Assembly: GCA_036426205.1 (NCBI GenBank)
Contig: CM071574.1
Location: 9,472,864 to 9,536,863 of the forward strand
DNA: 64,000 bases
Direction: 5' to 3'
Origin: Ascaphus truei
Taxonomy: Eukaryota > Chordata > Amphibia > Anura > Ascaphidae
The position numbers were made by a program, and so were the translations under genes. Below the pieces are notes generated by a model. It had not been told where the DNA came from and ran no database searches. It saw only the letters and a program-made list of their open reading frames with translations. Shown here one piece after another: positions 25,097 to 61,835 of the stretch (its first letter is position 1; every line of letters begins with the position of its first letter).

Positions 25097-25215
25097 TACA
25101 GTAACACCGTAATAACACTATTCTGCATTTTTAGCTGTTCAGTATACCTTTTGAAGCATAACCCCTTTGATATTTCAATTTCTGCTTCTTAAAACTTATT
25201 TAATGTGTGGTTGAA

Positions 25216-25530
25216 ACACAGCTTCACAGTGCAGAGCCAGTATAACCAGCTTCACACTGATGAGACCCAAAAGGTCGAAAAAAACTCTGTGAGTAGGGTT
25301 ACTGGCTCTGCACTTCTTTAACTCAGGCTGTGCTGAAAAGATGTGTAATAAGGCAGGCATTAGTTTATAGGGGTCCATGTTAAAATGATTTGAAGGGAAA
25401 GGTGACAATGTGTGCCGATTTGCATGTCATTTCCCAGAATCCCTAGCTGCAGTAGAAGCATTGTATGCTGGGAGATAATGGTGAAAAGCAGGGTTGCAGA
25501 GATGTGAATGTGCTCACAAGTGATCTTTTT
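25216..25530 (+). repeat. Hammerhead-bearing ~310-bp repeat, copy 1
   Basis: Begins with the ribozyme and runs into about 220 bp shared with copies at 54982-55280 and 56641-57240. Shared blocks include GTCATTTCCCAGAATCC near 25427 and a GCTCACAAGTG-like end near 25512. Its size and 5' ribozyme resemble ribozyme-bearing satellites and retrozymes known from animals. That is a comparison of architecture, not proof of relationship. No coding sequence is present. Confidence 0.6.
25231..25311 (+). ncRNA. Hammerhead ribozyme copy, slightly decayed
   Basis: Same repeat family as the copy near 55.0 kb. Core CTGATGA at 25257-25263, helix II GACC 25264-25267 with GGTC 25273-25276 around CAAAA, then GAAA at 25277. 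Outer helix I is a perfect 11 bp (25231-25241 with 25301-25311). An inner part pairs TCACA with TGTGA next to the core. The palindromic helix III has decayed into an A run ending in CTC, so this copy is predicted to be weak or inactive. Confidence 0.7.
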
Positions 25531-26800
25531 TCTTGCTGTTTGCTTCTTAAAAGGAATTATAAATTGTGATGGAAGTATTTACAAAGGCGTGTATGTCTGG
25601 CTTCAGGCTTAGGGGAGATCCCCAGCAGCAGGAAGGAGTAGATAGAGGGTGTGAATAGAGGTTTTGTATAGGTGTTTTTTATTGAGGGGTAAAGAAGTTG
25701 TTGGGAGAGGTGTATAAATAATGGTTCAGTTGGGAGTGGGGATGTTGGAGAGAACAGAGACGTTCACAAAGGAGTGAGGAAACAGTAAACAGAAAAAGCA
25801 GCAGGGAGGGCATAGTGAGATGCAGGAGGAGAGACTTCGCAGGTACTGGAGGATAGAAAGAGTACAAAGAATCACAGCTTTTGGAAAGTTAAATTCTCAC
25901 AGTTGCAAAGTTGCTGTTGTGCAGAGTCCAGATCTTCCTCTAATATACACCTCCAACTGCAACTCCAAAATTAACTCTGCCAGACACTTTAAATGTGACA
26001 CTTAAGATGGACACACAGCCAAATGGATTCACAGCCTAGATGGATGGTCTTAAATACTCTAAAACACAACCACTTGACTAACAATTATGGGAGGGGTTTG
26101 CCTAATCTACTCTCACAGACATACTGATTAGATTTTACATTCTGTAGCAATTGATGGTATAATTCAGCTCAGACACATACCTGTTTGAAGAAATAAATCA
26201 GAATGTTAGTCCAGATATTCAGAATGCATCCATGATTAAAGATATAGAAAGAAAACATCCAGATATGATACATTTAAACAAGTAGATCTTTTAAGCATTT
26301 GATAAGATGACCCGGAATTACAAACAAATGTAACTTCAACGACATATCTTCACAAATATGGCGGCTGAAATGGGATCTGGGTTGAGACTGCTGTTCATTT
26401 ACTTTACTCACTAACATAATGTGAGTACGCTTATCACCTTGACACAAGTATCTAACATTGCTGTATGGTACATACATATTAGCACAAGTACAATTGTTAT
26501 AACAGATTCTAGCACAATATACTGTACTGTATTTATAAGAAAAACAGAAAGTGAATCCCTGCGCTTCTCCCTTTGGGATAGCAATAATTGGGGAATATTG
26601 TAATAAAGAACTGTATTTAAAAGAGCCATTTTAGATTCTCTCCCACCACTTCCTGCAATATTCACCAAAGTTGTGTTACAAAATACAACTACAATTCTTC
26701 ATAATGATGTCCTGCACAATATGTTCCAGGCAATCGCCTGCTCCTGAGCTTTGGTTATTGTTCAGTAGCAAAGTATTCTTCATGGGCTTAATCCAACCCA
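25531..26800. other. No gene recognised
   Basis: Mixed AT-rich sequence. No supported exon, RNA gene or repeat family. Confidence 0.45.
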
Positions 26801-38020: not shown

Positions 38021-38464
38021 TGTATGTATGTATGTATGTATATTTTTACTTGTATAGCATCATCCATGTATAGGGTGACCAGATTTTGAAAATGAAAAAC
38101 CGGGACACTTTTTTTTTTACACAACAGTTTATTTATTGTAGTACACTTATACTTTACTACCATTAGTCCCTGTTACGTGCGTGTGTGCACGTGCGTCGGA
38201 TGACCTCACTAATCGAAAAAAAAAAAAAAAGATGTGAATGATTCTGAACCCATTAACCAGTGTCAGGATGCCCCCTCTTCACAATTTCTAAAGCAGCAAT
38301 CCCGCCTGGGATCTTACCTGATCCGCAGTCCCTCAAGGTACTATACTGGAGGGGAGGTGTTCCCTACCTGTCTTCCGATGTCTCCCGCGTGAAACTTGAG
38401 TCAGATCTGGAATAAAGAAGGGTAGGTTACTTCAATGTAGGTATACGGCAGTTAAGATAAGACA

Positions 38465-40795
38465 AAGAGGGTGAGGGAGACAGGGAGGGAGACGGAGAGA
38501 GAGGGAGACAGGGGGAGAGAGAGAGAGGGAGACAGGGGGAGAGAGAGAGGGAGACAGGGGGAGAGAGAGAGGGAGACAGGGGGAGAGAGAGAGGGAGACA
38601 GGGGGGGAGAGAGAGGGAGACAGGGGGAGGGAGAGAGAGAGGGAGACAGGGGGAGAGAGAGAGGGAGACAGGGGGAGAGAGAGAGAGAGAGACAGGGAGG
38701 GAGAGAGAGAGACCGGGAGGGAGAGAGAGAGAGACAGGGAGGGAGAGAGAGACAGGGAGGGAGAGAGAGACAGGGAGGGAGAGAGAGACAGGGAGAGAGA
38801 GAGACAGGGAGGGAGGGAGAGAGAGACAGGGGGAGACAAGGGGAGAGAAGGAGACAGGGAGAGAGAGAGAGAGACAGGGAGGGAGAGAGAGAGGGAGACA
38901 GGGGAAGAGAGGGAAGAAAGGGGGGACCGATGAGTAGAGGGAGACAGGGGGGAGAGAGAGAGGGAGGAAAGGGGGGAGAGAGAGGGATGTAAAGGGGCCG
39001 AGAGAGAGGAGAGAGCCCAGGGCGGATGAGAGACGGAGAACCCAGGGGGAGAGAGAGAGAGGACAGGGGGAGAGAGGAGAGAGACAGGGGAGAGGAGAGA
39101 CAGGGGATGGAGAGAGACGAGAGACAGGGGGAGAGAGAGAGAGACGGGGGGAGCAGGGGGAGAGAGGGAGACAGGGGGAAGAGAGAGGATGACAGGGGAG
39201 AGGCGAGGAGGACAAGGGGGAGAGAGGAGAGAGGGGGAGGAAGAGGGGAGACGGGGAGAGAGGGGAGACAGGGGAGAGAGAGAGGCAGGAAAGGGGGGGA
39301 GAGAGGGGCAGACAGGGGGGAGAGGGGGAGAAGGGAGACAGGGGAGAGAGAGAGGAGGGCGGGGGGGAGAGAGAGATGGGAGGATAACAGGAGGGTGCGC
39401 GAGGAGAGAGGGCGACAGAGGGGAGGAGAGGGGAGGCCCGGGGGCAGAGAGAGCGGAGCAGGAGGGGCGATGATTTTGAGAGAGGACGGGGGGGGGGACG
39501 AGACAGGGAGGGAGGACCAGGAGGGAGACGAGGACGTTGAGATGATGTGAGCTGGTGAGGGTAAGGAGTACAGGAGGGCGGGTAGAGACAGGGATGGAGA
39601 GAGCGGAGAGGGGCTGTAGCACAGGGGAGGGAGAGCTCAGGGAGGGGAGTGACGAGGGCGGGATGGGGATTTTGTCCGGATTCGAGCACAGGCGGAGGGA
39701 GGCGGGAGTCAGAGACAGGGAGGGAGGGATGGGAGTGGTGACGATGGACAGGCGTAGGGCGGGGACGACGAGAGACTCAGAGACACGGGCTAGGGATTCA
39801 TTTGAGGTCGCGGAAAGAGACAAGTGCGACGGGTTTTGATGAGGGAACGAGGCTCCGGAGAGGCTTGGGTAAGAGGAGAGACGAGGCATTTTGTGCTATT
39901 AGGGAGGGAGAAAGGAAGGGCGTGAGAGACAGGGGAAGGGAGAGAAAGGATATGGGACAGGGGACGGAGGGACAGACAGTGGAGGGAGAGCAGGGAGGGA
40001 GGAGTAGAAGGGATGGGATGGGAGGTAGAGCAGGGAGGGAGGGTAAGAGACAGGGTGGGAGAGACAGGGAGGGAGGGTGGGAAGAGAAGGGAGGGAGGGA
40101 GAGACAGGGAGGGAGGGAAGAGATCTTTGGCGAGGGAGAGAGCAGGAGGGTAGACGGAGGGGAGGAGGAGAGGGGAGACAGAGGTGGAGGGTAGAGGGAT
40201 GAGACAGGACGGAGGGAGAGAGAGCAGGGAGGAGAGAGACAGGGGGGAGAGACAGAGAGGTGAGGAGAACGCAGGCAGAGAGACAGGGGAGGGAGTGGGA
40301 CAAGGTGAGGGAGGAGAGACGGGGAGGGAGGGAGGACCAGGGAGGAGGGAGAGGGAGGGAAGACAGGGAGGGGGCCAAGGGGAGAGGAAGGAGACAGCGG
40401 AGGATGAGGGAGAGAGACAGGGAGGGAGGATGGAGGGAGGGGGTGGAGAACAGGGGAGCGAGGAAGCCAGGGAGGGATGAGGAGACAGGGGGGAGGGAGA
40501 AGCGGGGGGACAGGGGGGAAGAGGGAGAGGCGACAGGGGAGAGGAGGAGACAGCGAGGAGAGCGAGAGAGAACAGGGGCGGAGAGGAGAGACAGGGGAGA
40601 GAGAGAGAGACCGGGGAGGGAGGGAGAGAGGGAGAGACAGGGAGGGTGGAGAGGAGAGACAGGGAGGAGGGGAGAGGAGAGACGGGGGAGGGATAGAGGG
40701 AGAGACAGGGAGGAGCAGGAAAGGGAGGGGAGAGTACAAGGAGAGACAGGGAGGGGAGAGAAAGGGAAGGGGAGAGACAGGAGGGAAGGGAGACA
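38465..40795. repeat. Purine-only (GGGAGACAGGG/GAGAGA) minisatellite array
   Basis: About 2.3 kb in which the + strand is almost only G and A with rare C/T. The repeat unit is about 22-24 bp (GAGACAGGGGGAGAGAGAGA), degenerating to the right. Long apparent reading frames on both strands are an effect of the composition. Confidence 0.95.
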
Positions 40796-43700
40796 CCCAC
40801 CACTGATACACACAACACATACACAACACACACACACTGACACACCACTCCAACCCCAGCTGAGACACACACACCAACCCCCACCCAACTATAACCCCAA
40901 CACCAACCAACTCATACTCACACCCCCCACGACACCATTGATACACACCCACCCACTGATACACACCCATCCAACCCACTGATACACACACACCCCCACC
41001 CACTGATACCCACACCCACTGATACCTACACCCAGTGATACCCACACCCACCGAGACTACACACGAGAACCACGGAGACACTACAAACACCTCAGAGAAG
41101 ACCAGATTCTGACCACATCACCCCAAGGGACACAGGAACGCAGCACAACACACACACGACATAAGTCATTATACGGATCGAGACTAGCTACATACGAGGC
41201 ATCAGACATCGAGACGCGCCCAGCAGGCGTGGATCTAAACAACATCACACACACCACGACGAGCACACCAACACACCGGAGACACTCCACACCACACCCA
41301 GCGGAGACACACTACAGCACAGGCTACGGAACCGACGGAGGGACAGCACCGCCACAAGCACGGATCACACAGCCCAACGACGACACTGAGTCACGACACA
41401 GACGACGACACACAACAGTGACATCCACACACAGACGAGCACGGGACACCGAACACTACGACACACACGTTACTACACACGAACAGTACGCCAGCACTTA
41501 GCACACACAGCACGAGAACAACCATCAATTTAAAAAAAAAAAACAGGCTAAAAGCCAGGTGGGATGATTAAAAATATTGTTATACGAAGTTACCTATTAA
41601 ACAAAAGATCCCAAAAAATTTAAAAAACTACCCATTTTAGTTTTACCAGCCTCCCGATAATTCAAAATACATTGATGCCTTCTACCAACAGATCAAATTG
41701 AAAAAAAAACAATAAAAAGAAAAATGACACAAAAAAAATCAAACAAAAGTATAAAATATATACTAAACGAATTGGGTAGCAGACCAGTCTCAAAATAACA
41801 ACAAAATAACCTCTTGGCAGAGGGTAGGGGATGATGAACAACACATAACACGCAAGGAGAGACCCACGAGAAACAAACACAACCACATCACACGCAACAG
41901 GACGGCGACCACAAAAGCCACAGCGGCAGTTAAGGTTGAGGGACTAAGCCAAACCAAGAGGATGGACTACTCAGCGTTAACAACAACGCGGAGGAAAAAT
42001 ACATCACACAACAAGATCGACACCACTACTACACGACCACGGCGACCGACACCCATCGGAGACACAAACACTTCACGAGCCACGGGCGGACACACGACAA
42101 ACACACACAGCCGCCAGTGCACATCACACACCACGCAGGGCAGCACGACTTACAGCACACAAGGACCACAAACACACGACCACACGCAGCTACACACAGC
42201 ACATCACACCAACACAGCCTTACACAAAGCTGTAGAGGACACAGAAACAATCAATATCACCCACAACGGGTAGACACGAACAATAAACACAAACACATCT
42301 AGAGCAGGGAAACCCATGCACACAAACCCAAGGGAGGACACCGAACGGAGAGCACACAGCACCCACACGGAGGACGCACAGCTGGCACATCAGCAGCACA
42401 GCACACGGGAGGACAACACCACATCACATGGGGAGAACACAAAATACCCACGGAGGACTATCCTTCTACACACATGTGATGGGGAAAGAAAGACAGGAGA
42501 GCATCACCTTCGACGCACACATCAACCCACGGTGGGGAGGACTTCATGCACATTTCCACGCAACCACCCACGGTAGAGCATGAAGACTGAGGATGACAGT
42601 CAACACTACATTACACACAAAGAACACGCGGGCCAACGTGCCAGCGACGACCACACACATCACACGACATCAACCAGCCCACCAGCATCAACAGCACAAT
42701 AACGACTTCTAAGCACACACACAGGGCGCGACACAGCACATGGACATAGACCCATTATTTGATCAACACACACAGCTACAACCTGATACACACCCACTGC
42801 ATACAAACACACCAACACATCACAAACACCAATGATACACACATAACACACCACCTGATACACACACACAACTCCGATCACAACCCACTTCCCTGTGATA
42901 CAACCACTCCCTGACACACACACACCCACTCCATGATACACCCACCCTATCTGATTACACACAAACCACTGATACACACACCCACTGATACAACCACCCA
43001 CTGACTTAAACACGATACCCATCCACCGGAGACACCAAATGAATCACATCACATCCCCCACACCTGATACACACACACACACACCCACTGATACACACAC
43101 ACACCCACTGATACACACACCCACACACTGATACACACACACACACCCTGATACACACACACACACACCCCCTGATACACCTACCCTTACGCGGGAGAAA
43201 CCCTATAAACAGACACACGGAAGACATCAGATCCCCCCAGTCACACACAAACACAAACACTGACATCACATCCACACACACACAAACAGTCACACAGGCA
43301 CACAAACATCACCACACAACACCCACACACACCCACCACATCACACACACCACTGATACACACACACAACACGATACACACACAAAACACTGATACACAC
43401 ACACACACGGATACACCACACACACGGATACACACACCACACAAATGAGAAATCACACAACACACACACACAGCCACACACCCCATTCTCTACACACCAC
43501 ACACACACACACACACACCAAACACACACACACACACGATACAACACACACACACACACCACACAACACACCACACGTGCGACACACACACCCACGGGAG
43601 ACAGCACACCAACACACGGATACACACACAACCCCTGATTGACACACACAACCCCCTGTAGACACAACAACACACCCCCGGACACAACACAGCACACACA

Positions 43701-50329: not shown

Positions 50330-51420
50330 TTTTAATATTCAAGGACTCCATTTCCACAGACTCAGTACCATAAAATTGGCATAAAGCAGACATGGTGCCT
50401 ATATTTAAAAAGGGAGCTAGATCACTACTGGGGAATTACAGACCTGTAAGCCTGATATCAATAGTGGGGAAGCTACTTGAAGGTTTAGTATGGGATAATA
50501 TTCAGGAATACCTATTGGAAAACAAATTATTAGTAACAGTCGGCATGGATTTATGAAGGATAGGTCATGCCAAACTAACCTTATTAGTTTCTTTGTGGAG
50601 GTAAGTAAGAATTTAGACCAGGGTAATGCAGTTAATGTGGTCTACTTAGGTTTTGAAAAGGCTTTTGATACGGTTCCACACGGGGTTATTGTACAATATA
50701 AAGGAAAGTCGACTAAAAATATTTGCACCTGGATTGAAAACTGGTTGGAGGATAGACAACAGAGATTTGTCATAAAGGAAAGGGCTGAGAGGGCTCAGGT
50801 TGGGCTAATGTCGTGGGTGGTGTTCCTCAGGGATCGGCCCTGGAACACCTGCTTTTAACTTGTTTATTAATGACCTTGAGGTTGGCATCGAGAGAAAAGT
50901 TTCCATCTTTACTGATTATACTAAATTGTGCAGGGTGTAAAATCAGAGAAGTATATAACTCCTCCTCTCCAGAAGGACATAGACTGGAATCTTGGGCAGG
51001 TAAATGGAGGTTTAATACAGATACAGTAAATGTAAGGTTATGCATTGGGAAACAAGAATAAACAGGTAACATCCAAATTAAATGAGGCACAATTAGGTGA
51101 ATCCTTGATGGAGAAGGATTTAGGAGTGGTTGTAGACAGCAGACTTAGCAATAGTGCCCAATGTCATGTAGTAGCTCCAAAGGCAAATACGAGCTGATCT
51201 TGCATTAAACGGGGAATGGATGGAAGGTAAATAAGCATAATTATGTTCCTCTATAGCAGACCTTGAATATGGATTTCAGTTTTGGGCACCACTTCATAGA
51301 AAATACATTATGGAACTAGAAAAAGTGCAGAGAAGAGCCACCACATTAATAAAGGTGATGGAAAAGCTGATTTATGAGTAGAGGCTAGCTAATTTAGATT
51401 TGTTTACATTATAAAAAAAG
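50330..51420 (+). pseudogene. CR1 reverse transcriptase, frameshifted
   Basis: GARSLLGNYRPVSLISIVGK near 50410, KDRSCQTNLISFFVEVSKNL and FEKAFDTVPH at 50553-50858, FLRDRPWNTCF replacing the usual G-V-P-Q-G-S block through a frameshift, DLEVGIERKV and weakly TDYTKLC (usual A-D-D-T-K-L) near 50905-50930, then C-terminal pieces to 51420. The catalytic A-D-D is lost. Same family as the minus-strand CR1 at 3.1-6.6 kb. Confidence 0.8.
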
Positions 51421-52989: not shown

Positions 52990-53250
52990 ATACTGTAAAG
53001 TATCTGTCGTCTTTAGAAGCTACTGCATGACTTTGGGCACTATTGCTAAGCCTTCTGTCTACAAGCACTCCTAAATCCCTCTCCATCAAGGATACCCCTA
53101 ATTTATCCCCATTTAATTTGTAAGTCGCCTGTTTATTCTTGTTTCCCAAATGCATAACCTTACATTTATCTGTATTAAACCTCATCTGCCATTTACCTGT
53201 CCAAGTTTCCAGTCTCTCCATGTCCTTCTGGAGAGAAATGACTTCCTGTC
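52990..53250 (-). mobile_element. Inverted CR1 fragment inside the CR1 3' end
   Basis: Minus-strand frame LETWTGKWQMRFNTDKCKVM, HLGNKNKQATYKLNG, LGVLVDRRLSNSAQSHAVAS: a later, more intact RT piece than in the host element. Flanked on both sides by + strand CR1 3' UTR (to about 52980 and from 53255). Either a nested insertion or a twin-primed inversion. Confidence 0.75.
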
Positions 53251-53346
53251 TATTTTTAGCATAGGTTGAACTAGATGGATATATGTCTTTATCAACCTCA
53301 TCTATAATTCAACTACTATACTATACAATATCATTTTGTTTTGCAG

Positions 53347-53541
53347 AGATAACGTGTCTCTCGGATAACAACCATTCTACAGATGTGACTACATGTCTCA
53401 AATGGGCCGGTCCAATGCCATCCTTGGTACAGGAATGTCATATATCATGTAAAGATGACTGCACATTTACTTCCTGGTCTACATTTACCCTTTGCTCCAT
53501 GGACTGTGGATCAACTCGGACTAGGAGGCGATCTCTCACTG
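53347..53541 (+). CDS. THSD7B: THSD7B-like exon (thrombospondin type-1 repeat)
   Basis: Internal exon of a THSD7-family gene. These are large type-I membrane proteins with many extracellular thrombospondin type-1 repeats. It follows the acceptor AG at 53345-53346 and ends at the donor GT at 53542-53543. Length is 195 bp, phase 1 to phase 1, with no stop. The 64 complete codons read about EITCLSDNN...TTCLKWAG...LVQECH..CKDDCTFTSWSTF, then CSMDCGSTRTRRRSLTG. The cysteine spacing and the W-x-x-F-x-x-C start of a TSP1 repeat are family hallmarks. Recalled human THSD7B matches better than THSD7A (SDDN, LVQEC, CTFTAWS, LTGK), so the paralogue call is moderately firm. The last codon, G plus GA from the next exon, restores the conserved glycine. 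The sense-strand CR1 tail ends about 30 bp upstream. A functional gene cannot be confirmed from one intact exon. Confidence 0.78.
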
Positions 53542-53609
53542 GTATGCTAGCAATAATTTGTGGTGGACTGACATAAAATTGTTGTTGCCATTACTGTGCA
53601 TGTATTGTA

Positions 53610-54800
53610 TTGTATTGTATTGTATGTCTTTATTTATATAGCGCCATTAGTGTACATAGCGCTTCACAGTAGTAATACATGTGGTAATCAAATAAATAAC
53701 AGATAATATAAATAACAGATCATGGGAATAAGTGCTTTAGACATAAAAGTAACATTTCGGAAGAGGAGTCCCTGCCCCGAGGAGCTTACAGTCTAATTGG
53801 TAGGTAGGGAGAACGTACAGAGACAGTAGGAGGGAGTTCTGGTAAGTGCGTCTGCAGGGGGCCAAGCATTATGTATCGTGTTTAGAATTCCACAGTGCTA
53901 TTCATATGCTTCTTTAAGCAAGTGTGTTTAAGGTGGGTCTAAAGGTGGATGAGAGGTGTGCTAGGGGTACTGAGGGGAGGGCATTCCAGAGGTGTGGGGC
54001 AGTCAGTGAAAAAGGTTAAGGCGGGAGAGGGCTTTTAGATACAAAGGGGGGTAGAAAGAAGACATCCTTGAGAAGAACGCAAGTCTGGATGGTGCATACC
54101 GAGAAATTAGGGATGAGATGTAAGGAGGGGCAGAAGAAATGTAAAGCTTTAAAGTGAGGAGAAGAATGGAGTGTGAGATGCGGGATTTGATCGGAAGCCA
54201 GGAGAGGGATTTCATGAGGGGAGATGCTGAGACAGATCTAGGAAAGAGTGAGTGATTCTGGCAGCAGCATTTAGGATAGATTGTAGGGGAGACAGGTGAG
54301 AGGCAGGAAGGGACGGACAGCAGGAGGTTACAGTAATCAAGACGGGAGAGAATGAGGGCCTGAGTCAGAGTTTTAGCAGTCGAACAACAGAGGAAAGGGC
54401 GTATCTTAGTTATATTGCGGAGGAAAAAGCGACAAGTTTTAGAAATGTTTTGAATGTGAGGGGCGAATGTGAGAGAGGAGTCGACATGACCCCTAGGCAG
54501 CGTGCTTGGGCTACTGGGTGAATGATTGCCAAGTAACGATAGTGGAACAGTGTGGAGGAGGTAGTAGGGCCAGGTTTGGGAGGGAGGAGTATGAGGAGCT
54601 CTGTTTTAGCCTGTTGATGTTTAAGGCGTCGGAGGGCCATCCAGGATGATATAGCAGAAGAGACATTCAGAAACTTTGGTTTGTACAGCAGGTGTAAGGT
54701 CAGGTGTTGAAATGTGAATATATTGTGTGTGTCGGCATAGAGGTGATAATTAAACCCAAAGATGATCATGATATGAAAGTTATTAAGGAACATATAGATA
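53610..54800 (-). mobile_element. L2 LINE fragment
   Basis: The minus strand encodes an L2 RT C-terminal region: SSAISSWMALRRLKHQQAKT and ARCLGVMSTPLSHSPLTFKT near 54440-54700, SLSWLPIKSRISHSILLLTL and APPYISSLISRYAPSRLA at 54003-54215. The 3' UTR ends at a (TGTAT)n tract at 53610-53630. Stops and frameshifts throughout. It lies in the intron between the two THSD7B-like exons, antisense to the gene. Confidence 0.8.
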
Positions 54801-54981
54801 CAAGATGCATTCAGTCTGACTTGGGTTAAAAAAATAAAAATGTATAGTGAATACTCATGCTAATGAAATGTATACAGTTCTAAACATACTGTTAAAACGA
54901 CAGTGAATGTGTATATATATATATATTACCCAGCATAACTTAACTAAATATGGTAAAACCCATCCTCATTGCTTCATTTTT

Positions 54982-55063
54982 GCATAGCCAGTATAACCAA
55001 CCCCACACTGAGGAGACCCATTAAGGTCGAAACAGCTGTCTGTGGGTGGTTTACTGGCTCTGC
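54982..55063 (+). ncRNA. Type-I hammerhead ribozyme, structurally complete
   Basis: Core CTGAGGA is at 55008-55014 (CUGANGA; position 7 is free). Helix II is GACC 55015-55018 with GGTC 55025-55028 around a 6-nt loop. GAA follows at 55029-55031. Next is the self-complementary ACAGCTGT 55032-55039, then C55040 as H17, giving a GUC cleavage triplet. Helix I is CCCACA 55002-55007 with TGTGGG 55041-55046, then AACC 54995-54998 with GGTT 55048-55051, then an outer arm 54982-54992 with 55053-55063 (10 of 11 paired). Predicted cleavage is 3' of C55040. A helix III this short or palindromic is typical of retroelement-linked hammerheads that may work as dimers. The surrounding repeat (to about 55280) has copies near 25.2 kb and 56.6-57.2 kb. 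Activity is inferred, not shown. Confidence 0.82.
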
Positions 55064-55280
55064 ATCTTAGCACTGGCTGTGCTCAAGGCTGTGACCATGC
55101 GGCAAGCTAAGCGCTAGGTTAACCATGTTAAAATGGTTTTGAAGCAAAAGGTGGCACTGTGTGCTCCTTTGCATGTCATTTCCCAGAATCCCTTGCTGCA
55201 GTGGAAGGTGCTGTGTGCTGGGTGGTGATATGGTGAAAGGCGGGGTGCAGACTGTTAAGACATGCAAATGAGCATACAGT
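55064..55280 (+). repeat. Body of hammerhead repeat, copy 2
   Basis: Continues directly from the ribozyme at 54982-55063 and matches copies near 25.3 and 57.1 kb, including GTCATTTCCCAGAATCC near 55177. Downstream, 55393-55430 contains sequence resembling the repeat's 3' end in inverted orientation, so the insertion was probably rearranged after or during integration. Confidence 0.6.
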
Positions 55281-56640
55281 AATATTCCATTTGCTATATA
55301 ATATAATATATATATACACGCACACACATTTTAAGTTTTGGTGGGTGAAAAAGGTTACAAAAACCTCACAATTAGCATATGCCATAAAGAATATCACTTT
55401 GTGAGCACATTCACATGTCTTAGACAGGTCTGCTAACGGTGAAGGTTTTTTTTGCCTTTTTTACCGTTCCATAGAGTTGTGGAAATTAGAGATAAAAGAA
55501 TTCATTATTTGATTTTTTAGTTGCATTTTTGAGTGTATTGAACATCCTGGGGTGAGTGAGTAATCAAGTAACCTATCATTAACTAATATTTTATTCTGGC
55601 TCTGATTGCTCATATGACACAATTTAATTTGACAAACCTATTTGAAATAGTTGAATCCAGGGGAATTCATTTAAAAGAAATTAAATGTGGTTTGAAAAGT
55701 TAATCTAAAAATACATTGTTTTTGTAAAAATACATTGTTTTCAGTGAATTTAAATATGGTTTTATAAAAATACATTGTTTTTCAGTGAATTTAAATATTC
55801 TCCTCTCTGATTTTTTTTGGCAAACTCAGTCATATTATTTAACAATTTAAAAAAATGTGTATTAATCTGCTTGTAATCTATCTCCCTTGAATTGTTGCTT
55901 AAATGAATACTCATCTGAACACTTATATTGCGTTCTGGCACGTTTTTACCTTGTATTTTGTTTGCTGCTTTATTTTCAAACTGAATGTTAACACACATTG
56001 TTATAAAAGGAAATCATATATCTTGCATTAATCATCCTTTCTGTCATACTGCCTTTTCAAAGTTACTTTTCTTAGGTCGCGGGCATGGTCAGCGCTAGCC
56101 GCTGAGCCGCGCTCACCTTGTCAGTGAGCCCCTGTAGCCGCAATGAGAGCGGTTTTGCAGGGGCTAACGACGTTTCCGCAGTGCCGAGGAGGATTAGCAG
56201 AAGAAAAAAAATAGTTTCAGTGCTGAGGGAGCGGAGGGCGGGTCGTCACGTGAGCAGTTTGACAACGAAGGCAAACCAGTTCGCGATGTCACTCCCCCCG
56301 CCATAGACACGCCCCCGGAAGGCGCATGTAGTAAGGCCAGGGAAAGCAAACCGCTTTCCCTCAGCCTCTGCGCGCCTCCACATGGCTGCAGTCTCTATGG
56401 ACTCAGCCGTAGGCTGACGTATGAGGTGACCTCACAGGCTTAATGCAGTATAGTCTAATGCACTCATTATCCTCTTCAACCGTGTGATAGTAATTCACAG
56501 AGAATGTGTTTTTAAATGCAGTTTATACATTTTGTTGGCAAGAAAGCATGTAATTGCATTAGAAATTTTTTAAATAATGAATGTCGCTTTTACTCACCAT
56601 AATCTATTTAATGTGGGGTGATACCATACAGCTTCATATA
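55281..56640. other. Intron sequence, no further gene recognised
   Basis: AT-rich to 56040, with a direct repeat of AAAATACATTGTTTT units at 55709-55780. Then a CpG-rich block (56075-56420) resembling GC-rich MITEs (GCGCTAGCCGCTGAGCCGCG) without resolved ends. Confidence 0.45.
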
Positions 56641-57240
56641 GCAAAGCCAGTAACACTCCTGACGCTGACACCCAAATGTAGAGACGAGGACGGCGGGACT
56701 GTCATAATCCATTTCACATGAAATCCCGAGGTTTCAATTCAAAATCCGTTCGCGTTGTAAAATCCATCGACGAATTGCGCCCGTTTCAATTTGTGGGGAT
56801 TATAAAAAAACAATCGCAGATTCCACAATACGCTGTGGATTTTTAAGAATCCAGATTTGAATCCGCGGACTGGATTGTCAATGATAAAAAAAAAAAATAA
56901 TAATCGGAAATGCGGAATTCCCCTCTTTTTTGAGATCGGAGGCAGATCCAAATCGCCCCTGAAATTGTGCCATCTCTACGCAAAAGGTTGAAACAGTGAG
57001 TAGGGTTTACTGGCTGTGTACTTCAATTAACCCACGCTGTGCTGAAAAGCTGTGTAATGCGGAGGTATATACTTATAGGGGTCCAGTTCAAATGGATTTG
57101 AAGCCAAAAGGTGACACTGTGTGCTCATTTGCATGTCATTTCCCAGAATCCTGGCTGCAGTGGGAAGCATTGTGTATAAGAGATAATGGAGAAAAGCAGG
57201 GTTGCAGACCGTCTGAGATGTGAACGTGCTCACAAGTGGT
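56641..57240 (+). repeat. Hammerhead repeat copy 3, split by a nested insert
   Basis: The left part (56641-56675, helix I and a decayed core) and the right part (56978-57240, GGTTGAAACAG and body) match the other two copies. An unrelated stretch of about 300 bp interrupts the helix II loop. The core is degraded (CTGACAC), so this copy is not expected to cleave. Confidence 0.55.
56676..56977. mobile_element. ~300-bp MITE nested in hammerhead repeat
   Basis: Inserted into the ribozyme loop of the third hammerhead repeat. The ends GTAGAGACG and CATCTCTAC form short imperfect terminal inverted repeats. The AT-rich interior shows internal self-similarity (GGATT/AATCC blocks) and no reading frame of note. 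A hAT-type MITE is plausible but unproven. Confidence 0.45.
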
Positions 57241-57800
57241 ATTTTTATTTAAAATATAAATGACACATGCAGCTGAGCAGTAGGAAGAGCCTGACTCTGT
57301 TTGTTAGATCTACCTATCACCTTAAAAAAACTTGGTTTTTAATATGGCCATGAATTTGAAGGGCCTCGTACAAATGCCAAAAGGATTGAAATATTTCCTT
57401 TGATACCAAACCAGCAAGGGAAGCCAGATAACTAATATGCAGCATACGGCGGTGCAAAAGTAATGGACTGATAATACCCAGAATTATTATGAAGAAAGAG
57501 GCAGTATAATTGCTTTAGTTATACGATATAATTAGGATGGTATTAATATGCAATAACCCTCATTATTACTGAGACAGTAATGTGACATCTACAGTAATCT
57601 TCTTACCGTCTTCTCTGTAGTTCTTGGTTTTCAAACAAGAAGCAATTCTAGCCTGCCTTAAAATGTCACTAACGCTGACATATGGAACTTCCCCTTTCAG
57701 ACAACAAATAAATGAGGATTAATAGATTGTGTTTAGATTATGTCCGACTTTATTAGAATTCTACAGTATCTGACATTTCATTAAATCCTATTGTTTTTGT
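57241..57800. other. Intron sequence before the second exon
   Basis: AT-rich, no recognisable repeat. It ends in the pyrimidine-rich acceptor TTGTTTTTGTAACAG at 57791-57805. Confidence 0.5.
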
Positions 57801-57805
57801 AACAG

Positions 57806-58070
57806 GAAAGCAAAAAAAGAGAGACAGGTGTCAAAACACAGAGCTGTATCCTCTGTGAAATTGTGAAATTGAAATGTGTCCTTGTGAAGTTTTTAAAACC
57901 CCAGCCATATGGAAATTGGTCAGACTGCATAATACCAGATGCAAAAATGAAAAGCAATTAGGAGTGAGGAATCTTGGAGACATCAAAGAATGTGGAGCGG
58001 AAGGCGTACGAGTTCGAGCCAGTGCTTGCTATGATCAAAACTGGCAGAATTGTGAATTTGTAGCAGTTCG
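57806..58070 (+). pseudogene. THSD7B: THSD7B-like next exon, reading frame disrupted
   Basis: Follows acceptor CAG at 57803-57805 and ends before donor GTAAGG at 58071. It continues the previous exon in phase: GKQKKRDRCQNTELYPL, then CPCEVF, QPYGNWSDCIIPDAK, GVRNLGDIKECGAEG and ASACYDQN, all recognisable THSD7 blocks. They are not in one frame. TGA 57856-57858 is in frame and lies in a tandem 8-bp duplication (TGAAATTG at 57856-57863 and 57864-57871). A +1 shift falls in the T/A run 57890-57898, a -1 shift near 57954-57962, and a further +1 near 58042 puts a TAG at 58061. Removing the net 7 extra bases gives 258 bp, phase 1 to 1, as expected for an ancestral exon. Either the gene has decayed here or the assembly has errors; the 8-bp duplication is hard to explain as a sequencing error. 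Confidence 0.72.
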
Positions 58071-59630
58071 GTAAGGGGGAAATATCAAACTATGCATTGT
58101 AGTACTGTACATGAAACATTTATCATCTCTATATTCAACTACTATAATATAAAATATTAAGTTGTCTTTTGTTAAAGATGACTTCTGTGAGTCTCAATTA
58201 AAAAAAAAATTTAATGCAATATTTTAACAAACTTTTTTATGCTGCCTGCTTTGATTTTTGACTCTTGATGTTTTAGCACTGTTAAAGAAACATCTCTTTT
58301 ATTCTTCATTTGGGGGGGATGGTACAAAAATATAGAGTGCGCATCGAAGCGTAAAGTAGGGGTGGATACGATGAGGAGGCAATAGTGATGTAAAGGGTAG
58401 AGGTGAGACAAAAGGGTGGAAGGCGCCCGTCCTCCTCAGGTGGTAATCAAACAGGATACGCACGGAAGTAGCAAGGAAGTGCGCAGGGAAGGACTTGCTA
58501 AAAGAGATCAGACATTGATGGCGATATTTCTTTTATGGTATGGATTGTAGCATCCATAACCAGAGAGAACCGCGATCAGCTCTCCCAATCATCTGTTGTT
58601 ACTTGACAAATTAAGCTTGACAATGTGGGCTGGATTCACCCAGACTTCGACCTGCCTGAAATGTCAGTGAATGAGTAAAAAAATAGACGTTATTTTTATC
58701 ACCCTAATTAATCAATGAATGAACGCATAAAGTACACACAACAATGAATGGTTGCATTTAACACAAAATCTCTAAGCATGCAAAGAAGTAATGAAGTGTT
58801 CATCTTATTGATTTGCTGCCACCCCGCTTGCCTCAAGAGCGCGTACGAAGAAGACACCCGGGAATTTCCCTAAAAGTTCCTCCCCCCCACCTACCCACTC
58901 GCCCCCGCTCCCCGAAAGCGAAGGAGAAAAGGGGGGCACGATATCAACCGTATTTAGACAGCCACGGGGGCCTCCCACAGTCAAGGACAATCAACCGACA
59001 TAGGTGAAGGGTTCTCCCATTTCCACCCAAACAGGCACACCACCCTGGGTATTTCAGGCAAAAGGGTAGGACGACAGGTGATCGTCAGTTCACAGTATAG
59101 AGCAGAGATGGGGTTGTTGTTTATAATATAATTAAATATACGACATATAATGACGCATATCATCAAAACACCCTGGTACTACCAAGATATTGCCCTGGAA
59201 ACCTCTCTCCACTTCTAGTCAGAACCCCAAGGAAAAAAGAGAGAGCACAAGAGAAAGGACCGAACACCAACAGAGACGGTCTCGGCGAAACGGAAAGATC
59301 GTCAGAAAGAAGTAAAAGATCCCCTATCAAGAGTAGAAATATATAAGAAATAGCAGAGAGTAAAGAAAAAAGGAAAGTTTATAAACAACAGAAAAAGAGA
59401 AGTAATTCATTCGCCTGGCAGTACAATAAGGCGTAGAGGGCTCCTAAGAAAGGGGACTCAAGAAAAATTGAAGCGAAAGAAGAGGAGAGAAGAAAAGAAA
59501 AGAAAAAGAAACGGAGAGAAGAAAGAACGAACGAGTATACTAAACAAAGAAAGCTCAAAACCGCAGCGCATAGACACAGAACCCCCCCCCCAGAAATAAT
59601 CCAAAACACGAAAAGCGCTCATAAAGACAC
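58071..59630. other. Downstream intron, no further exon found
   Basis: 58124-58176 resembles the sequence just before the first exon (53298-53346), sharing ATTCAACTACTATA. 59200-59600 is an A/G-rich, AAAGAGA-type low-complexity block. The expected next THSD7 exon was not found up to 64000. Confidence 0.45.
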
Positions 59631-59639
59631 TCCATACAC

Positions 59640-60960
59640 CATAACTCGCCTCTAGAGCGAGACCTCCAGCCCACCCTCCCGTGGCCTCGCTACTACAGAC
59701 CTCCCTCCCACCCCTACCCTAGCTCTACAGACACTCCCTCCCACCCGCCCTCGATCATAAGAATCCCTCCACACCACTCCCTGCACTCACGTACAGACCT
59801 CCCCCACCCTCCCTCGAATCTACCAGACCTCCCTCCACCCTCCCTACTCCTACAGACCCTCCCTCCCACCCTCCCCCGCTCACTACAGACCTCGACTCCC
59901 ACTCCCCACCCCTCCCCTCGCTCCCCAGACCCCTCTCACCCACCCCTCGCTACTACAGGACCTCCTCCCCAACCACCCCACTCCACAGGTCCCGCGAACT
60001 CCGTCTAACAGACCTCCCTCACACCCTCCCCCGCGCTCCTACAGACCTCCCCCCCCACACCACAAAATAAAGGAAACTAGAGAAAAAAGAAAGAAAAGAA
60101 CAACAAAAAATTCACACGAGCAAGAATAAAGACATAAATGCCACACACACATGAAAAGCCTACCGAACTGAACTCATATACAGACCTTCCTTCAGCCATC
60201 CCCTGCCTATGACACTCCTGCAGACCTCCCTCCCACCCTCCCTCGCCTCTTACAGACCTACATCCCCACCCCTCCCGCTCTCCTACAGACCTCCCTCCCA
60301 ACCCACACCCTCGCTCCTCTACAGACCTCCATCACAATCCACCCACCCCCGCTAAGAAAGAAAGATGAGAGAAAAAAAAAAAAAAGGGAGAGAAGAAAGA
60401 GACGCAAGAAAATAAGCAACCAACGAACGGGAAGAAAAGACCTACCTCACCATAACTACATCGATAATACAGACCCATCCCTACACACTTCCAGCGCTCC
60501 CCTACCAGACTCCCACCCTCCCCTCCCCTACAGACCTCCCACCCTCCCCTCGCTCTACAGACCTTCCCACCCTCCCCCTCGCCTCCCTACAGGACACCTC
60601 CCAACCATCCACTCGATCCTACAGAACCCTCTCTCCCACCTCCCTCGCTCCTACAGACATCCCACCATCCCATCGCCCTGTCCTACAGACCTCTCTCCCA
60701 CCCTCCCTCTCTCCTACAGATCTCTATCCCACCCTCCCCTCGACTTTCTACAGGACCTCCATCACCAACCCTATCAAAATACACCCTCCCTCGCTCCTAC
60801 AGACCTCCCTCCACCCTCCCCTCGCTCCTACAGACCTCCCACCCTCCCCTCGCTCCTACAGACCTCTCTCCCACCCTCCCCTCGCTCCTACAGATCTCTC
60901 TCCCACCCTCCCCTCGCTTCTACAGACCTCTTACTTGTCCCTCTCTCCTCCAAACACCTC
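59640..60960 (+). repeat. CT-rich minisatellite of splice-acceptor-like units
   Basis: Dozens of 28-32-bp units (CCCACCCTCCCCTCGCTCCT then ACAGACCTC), most regular at 60780-60930. The middle is broken by A/G-rich stretches at 60065-60180 and 60355-60440. Each unit has a pyrimidine tract followed by CTACAG on the sense strand of the THSD7B-like gene. Confidence 0.92.
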
Positions 60961-61675
60961 CTACCGGATCCCTGCTTCTCCCTCCTGCCTACTCTATTAA
61001 TACCCAGAATTTTTACCAATCAGGGCAGGGATTTTAGTAATTGACGGAATTTCAAACTGTTTATCCCATAATTGCGAATATTGGGCTACTACCAACATTT
61101 GTATCACTTAATCCAACCTAGCATGAACCTTATAATGCCTATGGATATAATGGCCACTTACTACATAAGCAAGATAAGACTTTAACATAATATTTAACAT
61201 ACTATTAACATTGTAGAATATACCCATACACATATATAAATATTAACCCCGTAGTGGCCCAATTAGCCAGTTAGTCATAATCTTGGGATCAATTCTAAAA
61301 TCTGATTGGGGTGCAGTTACAGCATCATGATGTGGCGACACCACGTGATGCGGTGTTGTCATGGCATCGTGACGATGATGCAGTGTCACATGACGCCACG
61401 ATGCGCATGGAGGATGGCTGCTCTCCTACAGAGGCCCCGCTCTCCCCCGACAATCTGTTTAATTGCTGTGGGGAAGAGTGCAGGGCCTTTGTAAGCAAGG
61501 TAGCGATTCTTGGGGGGTACAAAGGCACCCTTATAATCCCCCTGGTTGCGCTACTGGTCATAGTCCCCATGGCTAGCTGTCCACTTAGATGTTATGCACT
61601 TTGCATTTTGTTTCTAGGGTGTTTATGTTGTATGTTAATCCCTTTGCAATACATTGGTAGCCTCGGGCATCAAAA
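60961..61675. other. No gene recognised
   Basis: The open stretch at 61311-61682 (about 123 aa) has no recognisable domain, and its start lies in CATGATG-rich sequence. Treated as chance. Confidence 0.5.
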
Positions 61676-61685
61676 GGTTTAATCC

Positions 61686-61835
61686 AGGGATTTAATCACT
61701 GCTTCAGCACAGGTGGCTCAATCAGTGGCTCAGCCGAAGTCTGAGCCACTGATTGAGTCACCTGTGTTGAAGCAGGGATATCCTAAAAAACCTGACCTGT
61801 TGGTAGCTCTTGAGGCCTGGAGTTGACCACCCCTG
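61686..61835. mobile_element. hAT-type palindromic MITE, near-complete copy
   Basis: CTTCAGCACAGGTGGCTCAA and its inverse, ending GTTGACCACCCCTG. The 5' end is short of the usual CAGGGGTG. Confidence 0.7.

Follow-up and report, generated by a model that had tools for sequence, protein, structure and literature searches.

The intact hammerhead ribozyme in the analysed DNA of Ascaphus truei (64 kb, referred to as the window) lies in a dispersed repeat of about 350 nt. Three copies of this repeat, A, B and C, are present in the window, all on the plus strand. Copy A very probably represents a small retroelement of the amphibian retrozyme or satellite 2 kind, as a single, diverged copy inserted into an intron. 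This reading is based on the ribozyme match, the three-copy repeat, a predicted fold that favours dimers and an octamer/Staf-like block common to the copies. Against it stand the narrow margin of the model match, the solitary state of the copies, the broken helix I of copy C and the low specificity of Staf and octamer motifs. Coordinates are given in Table 1.

Table 1. Features of the hammerhead-bearing repeat and its surroundings in the window
Feature	Position	Strand	Basis
Copy A, retrozyme-like hammerhead repeat	54939..55302 (ends approximate)	+	Three-copy profile; 5' edge by eye against copy B
Extended type I hammerhead of copy A (two-part helix I, helix II, short helix III)	54982..55063	+	Letters, Rfam, predicted fold
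Hammerhead core, Rfam RF00163 Hammerhead_1	55002..55046	+	35.7 bits, E 2.9e-5
ACAGCTGT palindrome, helix III segment	55032..55039	+	Letters, predicted fold
GUC cleavage triplet; predicted cut after 55040	55038..55040	+	Letters
Distal-promoter-like block	55167..55197	+	Octamer variant CTTTGCAT (55167-55174), 5 nt, Staf/SPH-like TTCCCAGAATCCCTTGCT (55180-55197)
Copy B	25195..25540	+	76% to A over 279 columns; flanking repeats TGCTTCTTAAAA
Degenerate hammerhead of copy B	25251..25293	+	Hammerhead_1, 25.6 bits, below gathering
Copy C	about 56605..57259	+	blastn, profile; insert of about 300 bp, limits by eye
Candidate exon with TSP1-like peptide	53347..53541	+	AG before, GT after; weak TSP1 matches

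A preceding sequence-only reading had described a hammerhead with all invariant core positions, a GACC/GGUC helix II, GAA and a GUC triplet, and all of these were confirmed where it had placed them. In copy A the core CTGAGGA occupies 55008-55014 and GAA 55029-55031, helix II pairs GACC (55015-55018) with GGTC (55025-55028), and the inner part of helix I pairs CCCACA (55002-55007) with TGTGGG (55041-55046). A second paired stretch, the outer helix I, lies within 54982-54999 and 55047-55063 of the predicted fold; the claimed two-part helix I with paired flanks is thus borne out by the letters and the predicted fold together. The covariance-model search that had been proposed as a check returned Hammerhead_1 at 35.7 bits, against a gathering score of 34. 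The predicted cleavage position, between 55040 and 55041, agrees with the earlier claim, with the model match and with the letters. That is, with an invariant core, three helices and an open helix I, copy A is a type I hammerhead as judged from its letters and predicted fold.

Nine Rfam matches with E values up to 1 were obtained in the window (two Hammerhead_1, six microRNA models and one scaRNA model; two overlapping, lower-scoring matches of the same clan are left out of this count). The hammerhead of copy A was the sole match to reach the gathering score of its family, and all seven microRNA and scaRNA matches remained below theirs. One of the sites with sub-gathering matches, a hairpin at 61701-61773 found by the mir-1287 and mir-1269 models, is perhaps a palindromic repeat. 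Applying a relaxed hammerhead pattern (CUGANGA, 3 or more helix II pairs, GAAA, 2-13 nt, UH and 4 or more helix I pairs), we obtained two plus-strand sites in the window, at 25257 and 55008. The same pattern gave a single match in total among 200 control sequences (64 kb each, first-order Markov model) searched on both strands. When letters were matched without pairing, three sites were found in the window (29706 plus, 55008 plus and 22134 minus); 29706 and 22134 were rejected as hammerheads, since they fail the pairing pattern and gave no Rfam match with an E value of 1 or less. A hammerhead-like motif arising by chance in an ordinary intron would fit the margin of just 1.7 bits by which copy A surpasses the gathering score. 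Such a coincidence is nevertheless extremely unlikely in view of the E value of 2.9e-5, the one match in 200 control sequences versus two in the window, and the second copy, in which the motif recurs at the corresponding position of the unit.

We then considered the predicted folds of the 82-nt hammerhead. The minimum fold of the monomer (-37.3 kcal/mol) pairs the core CUG to a CAG in the helix III segment and is non-catalytic; it is this fold, not the catalytic one, that has a z-score of -5.15 and is matched in stability by none of 200 shuffles. The active monomer fold is predicted at -32.2 kcal/mol versus this minimum, and its 2-bp helix III would consist of an A-U and a C-G pair with an AGCU loop. 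The homodimer is predicted to fold best as a double hammerhead (-80.3 kcal/mol versus -74.6 kcal/mol for two monomers), a thermodynamic prediction made without a shuffled-dimer control. In this predicted dimer both cores are open and helix III is an 8-bp ACAGCUGU duplex. The hammerhead architecture is therefore seen in the minimum fold of the dimer and not in that of the monomer. Both forms of helix III that the letters had suggested, a 2-bp hairpin or an 8-bp intermolecular stem, find support in these predictions. Amphibian hammerheads have been described as poor cleavers in monomeric form that improve when dimeric (PMC7229834, PMC3088659), and for two axolotl monomers 6% and 22% cleavage in one hour was reported (PMC7229834). 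If copy A is similar to these two, its monomer should be a weak cleaver. The present-day copy would accordingly cut its host transcript weakly at most and, being solitary, would release no unit-length RNA or circle by itself.

Copies A and B (25230-25500) align by blastn at 76.3% identity over 279 columns, about 280 nt from the hammerhead on, copies A and C (56984-57259) at 70.6% over 289 columns, and copies B and C at 80.3% over 279 columns. B and C match in addition at 25197-25271 and 56605-56676, a stretch that lies upstream of the hammerhead and extends into it, and the part common to these two runs from near TATTTAATG to a T-run. A profile built from the three copies recovered all of them (C as two pieces) and reached 54886-55302 for copy A. 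Its other matches above the inclusion threshold in the window were three, all weak and inverted: two fall inside copies B (25332-25146) and A (55077-54981), and the third (55434-55375) corresponds to part of the unit's 3' end in reversed orientation. An imperfect palindrome of about 120 nt (55344-55465, 67% self-complementary) lies directly 3' of copy A, and its minus strand carries this reversed piece.

Copy B is flanked by the 12-nt TGCTTCTTAAAA at 25183-25194 and 25541-25552, which could be a target-site duplication; a flanking match of at least 12 nt was found in 44 of 2,000 random placements. The flanks of copy A share AT microsatellite matches only and those of copy C a 7-nt match only. 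Bounded by TGCTTCTTAAAA, the unit of copy B would measure 346 nt, and that of copy A about 364 nt (ends partly by eye). Animal retrozyme RNAs of about 170-400 nt have been reported (PMC7229834). Two marks of retrozymes, a type I hammerhead within a unit of such a size and the presence of several copies (three in 64 kb), are thus found here. Tandem, that is at least dimeric, copies were not found within the window: neither blastn nor the profile detected a tandem neighbour of A, B or C, and no period near 350 was detected in 53000-58500. A tRNA scan of the 64-kb window gave no match.

The ribozyme has fared differently in the three copies, and its core is intact in copy A only. Copy B retains CUGAUGA, helix II and GAAA, its helix III is gone and CUC replaces GUC. 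All six pairs of its inner helix I are kept, four of them the same as in A, the two changes being one two-sided (C-G to T-A) and one one-sided (C-G to T-G); the hammerhead sits at the same place in the unit as in A. In copy C an insert of about 300 bp interrupts the hammerhead between CTGA and CAAAAGG, the letters of helix III and the triplet are gone, and four of the six inner helix I pairs are broken. The insert itself (about 56674-56980) has ends that resemble, by eye, an inverted GTAGAGA/TCTCTAC and is perhaps a small DNA transposon. A cis double hammerhead formed between copies of the window was considered and rejected, with B lacking helix III and C being split and lacking helix I pairs and the triplet.

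Downstream of the core, 190 ungapped columns could be compared, of which 126 are identical. Copy A alone differs in 34, copy B alone in 8 and copy C alone in 18, and all three copies differ in 4. Because of these counts of columns differing in one copy only, we regard A as set apart from B and C. At the rate of 34 in 190, the probability that about 15 core letters stay untouched by chance is about 0.05. The intact core of A is thus a weak hint of retention; membership of A in a separate subfamily, which acquired its differences during the active life of the element, would explain it equally well.

The gene context was examined next. The candidate exon upstream of copy A sits in an open frame at 53265-53573, and its peptide matches Pfam TSP1_spondin weakly (16.9 bits, cutoff 41) and thrombospondin-1 in the PDB (E 0.0059, with no single stretch passing). 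Since this exon is on the plus strand, the hammerhead would lie on the sense strand, about 1.5 kb downstream of it. The sequence-only reading had placed the ribozyme on the sense strand of a THSD7B-like intron. The strand fits the candidate exon. The name THSD7B comes from that reading and appears in none of the matches; the exon is putatively assigned to this gene. A literature search for THSD7B together with a ribozyme returned no entry. The gene-specific role that such a placement implies finds no support either: the ribozyme belongs to a dispersed repeat, and with two sister copies in the window we disfavour a gene-specific ribozyme. Most simply, the intron is the landing site of an element.

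Selection on the host gene could nonetheless have kept copy A as a domesticated intronic ribozyme that cuts the pre-mRNA and thereby affects splicing or expression. Intronic hammerheads of amniotes, in RECK and C10orf118, are also named HH9 and HH10; like copy A they are type I and intronic, but they are conserved across species, whereas copy A is a member of a repeat. Their proposed domestication provides a precedent (PMC3088659, PMC6155905), and copy A is on the sense strand of its candidate intron. It is also the one intact ribozyme of three although 34 of 190 downstream columns differ in A only, a rate at which about 15 core letters would escape change by chance in about 5% of cases. However, if A belongs to another subfamily, its differences may predate the insertion and stem from a time when the ribozyme was kept by selection on the element itself. 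Weak activity is moreover expected of the monomer from the predicted fold and by analogy to the axolotl figures, and the hosts named in the relevant parts of the literature are RECK and C10orf118 (PMC3088659) and RECK, CTCL and DTNB (PMC6155905), not THSD7B. We therefore hold domestication to be very unlikely. Even less credence is given to a form of it in which the host recruited copy A as a dimer-type hammerhead, kept intact while the sister copies decay. The pre-mRNA would then be cut mainly when two transcripts pair via the 8-nt palindrome, and self-cleavage would thus sense transcript concentration.

Returning to the repeat as a retrozyme-like element, we analysed its most conserved part. 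TTTGCATGTCATTTCCCAGAATCC occurs exactly in all three copies (25419, 55168 and 57128), and 22 of its letters are an uninterrupted stretch of invariant columns, the longest in the three-copy alignment and followed in length by one of 9. The block resembles an octamer followed by a Staf/SPH site, as scored against a consensus string for each motif. Octamer and Staf together make up the distal element of the snRNA type. The octamer is exact in B and C and has one mismatch in A; the Staf/SPH-like site matches at 17 of 18 positions in A, 16 of 18 in B and fewer than 16 in C, where one base is missing. Counting both strands, the window holds 7 Staf-like sites with at least 16 matches and 9 exact octamers, and five mononucleotide shuffles gave about one Staf-like site per strand. 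Each motif alone is unspecific, and the argument for a promoter-like block relies on octamer and Staf site standing side by side and on their conservation. The exact 24-base pattern of the shared block had no match in collections of viral and of genome contigs, neither of them vertebrate. In copy A, the octamer region (55156-55177) and the 3' part of the unit (55259-55280) form a 22-nt inverted repeat with 91% complementarity.

Among published systems, the axolotl retrozymes come close to copy A. Their repeats measure 330 and 350 bp, with the hammerhead HHR_Amex1 in Rtz_331 and HHR_Amex2 in Rtz_353 (PMC7229834). Likened by this published description, they share with copy A a unit of about 350 nt that bears a type I hammerhead. 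In HHR_Amex1, helix III is described as one pair with a palindromic tetraloop, and dimers cleave better (PMC7229834). Copy A would have the same C-G pair, beside an A-U pair, and likewise a palindromic tetraloop. The axolotl hammerheads work better as dimers, and the predicted fold of copy A also favours dimers. In contrast, axolotl and other published animal retrozymes are tandem, whereas the copies in the window are single units.

Satellite 2 of newts and salamanders is, by its description, also similar, its repeat of about 330 bp carrying a type I hammerhead (PMC7229834). For newt satellite II an snRNA promoter was reported (PMC2220036, citing Coats 1994), and the term 'extended hammerhead' appears for satellite 2 in titles cited by PMC6155905. 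Satellite 2, as described, is tandem and has an snRNA promoter, whereas here we find solitary copies and an octamer/Staf-like block only. In Xenopus tropicalis, hammerheads apparently occur in interspersed repeats, and similar dispersed hammerheads were proposed as ancestral to the RECK and C10orf118 ribozymes (PMC3088659). By description alone, X. tropicalis thus resembles the present case in having a hammerhead in a dispersed repeat.

The terminal repeats of Penelope-like elements are tandem and carry type I hammerheads, and in the animals studied these elements occur alongside retrozymes (PMC7761336, PMC7229834); the repeat in the window might be a remnant of such a terminal repeat. Penelope hammerheads are, however, described as minimal, without helix III nucleotides or loop contacts (PMC7761336). 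Copy A is unlike them in its 2-bp palindromic helix III and its long two-part helix I, and the size of its unit agrees with retrozymes. A Penelope origin is highly improbable. The coding evidence is slight in both directions: the window has 60 stop-to-stop frames with a length of 110 aa or more, and 7 of them, plus the exon frame, were compared with Pfam. One of these frames gave an RVT_1 match (50499-50858; 23.9 bits, cutoff 29.6), which lies about 4 kb from copy A and is probably a retroelement remnant. The 200-aa frame directly upstream of copy A (54003-54605, minus strand) has no Pfam match and looks by eye like the end of a LINE-like RT protein.

How a retrozyme-like family would have been transcribed, circularised and mobilised, we infer by analogy from the published model. 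Tandem source copies would be transcribed from an internal promoter of the snRNA type, and the multimeric RNA would be cut into units by paired (double) hammerheads formed via the palindromic helix III. The units would be circularised after cutting and reverse-transcribed by the enzyme of another element, and the resulting cDNA would be inserted elsewhere in the genome.

Hammerhead repeats have been put forward as the origin of the conserved intronic ribozymes of amniotes (PMC3088659, PMC6155905), and copy A adds to them a well-preserved example that retains most of its unit and a promoter-like block. Copies that landed in introns are the raw material that this domestication idea requires. For annotation, an intact intronic hammerhead should first be checked for membership in a repeat. 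Elsewhere in the window, 38427-40980 and 59600-61040 have repetitive translations in several frames and look like low-complexity or minisatellite DNA.
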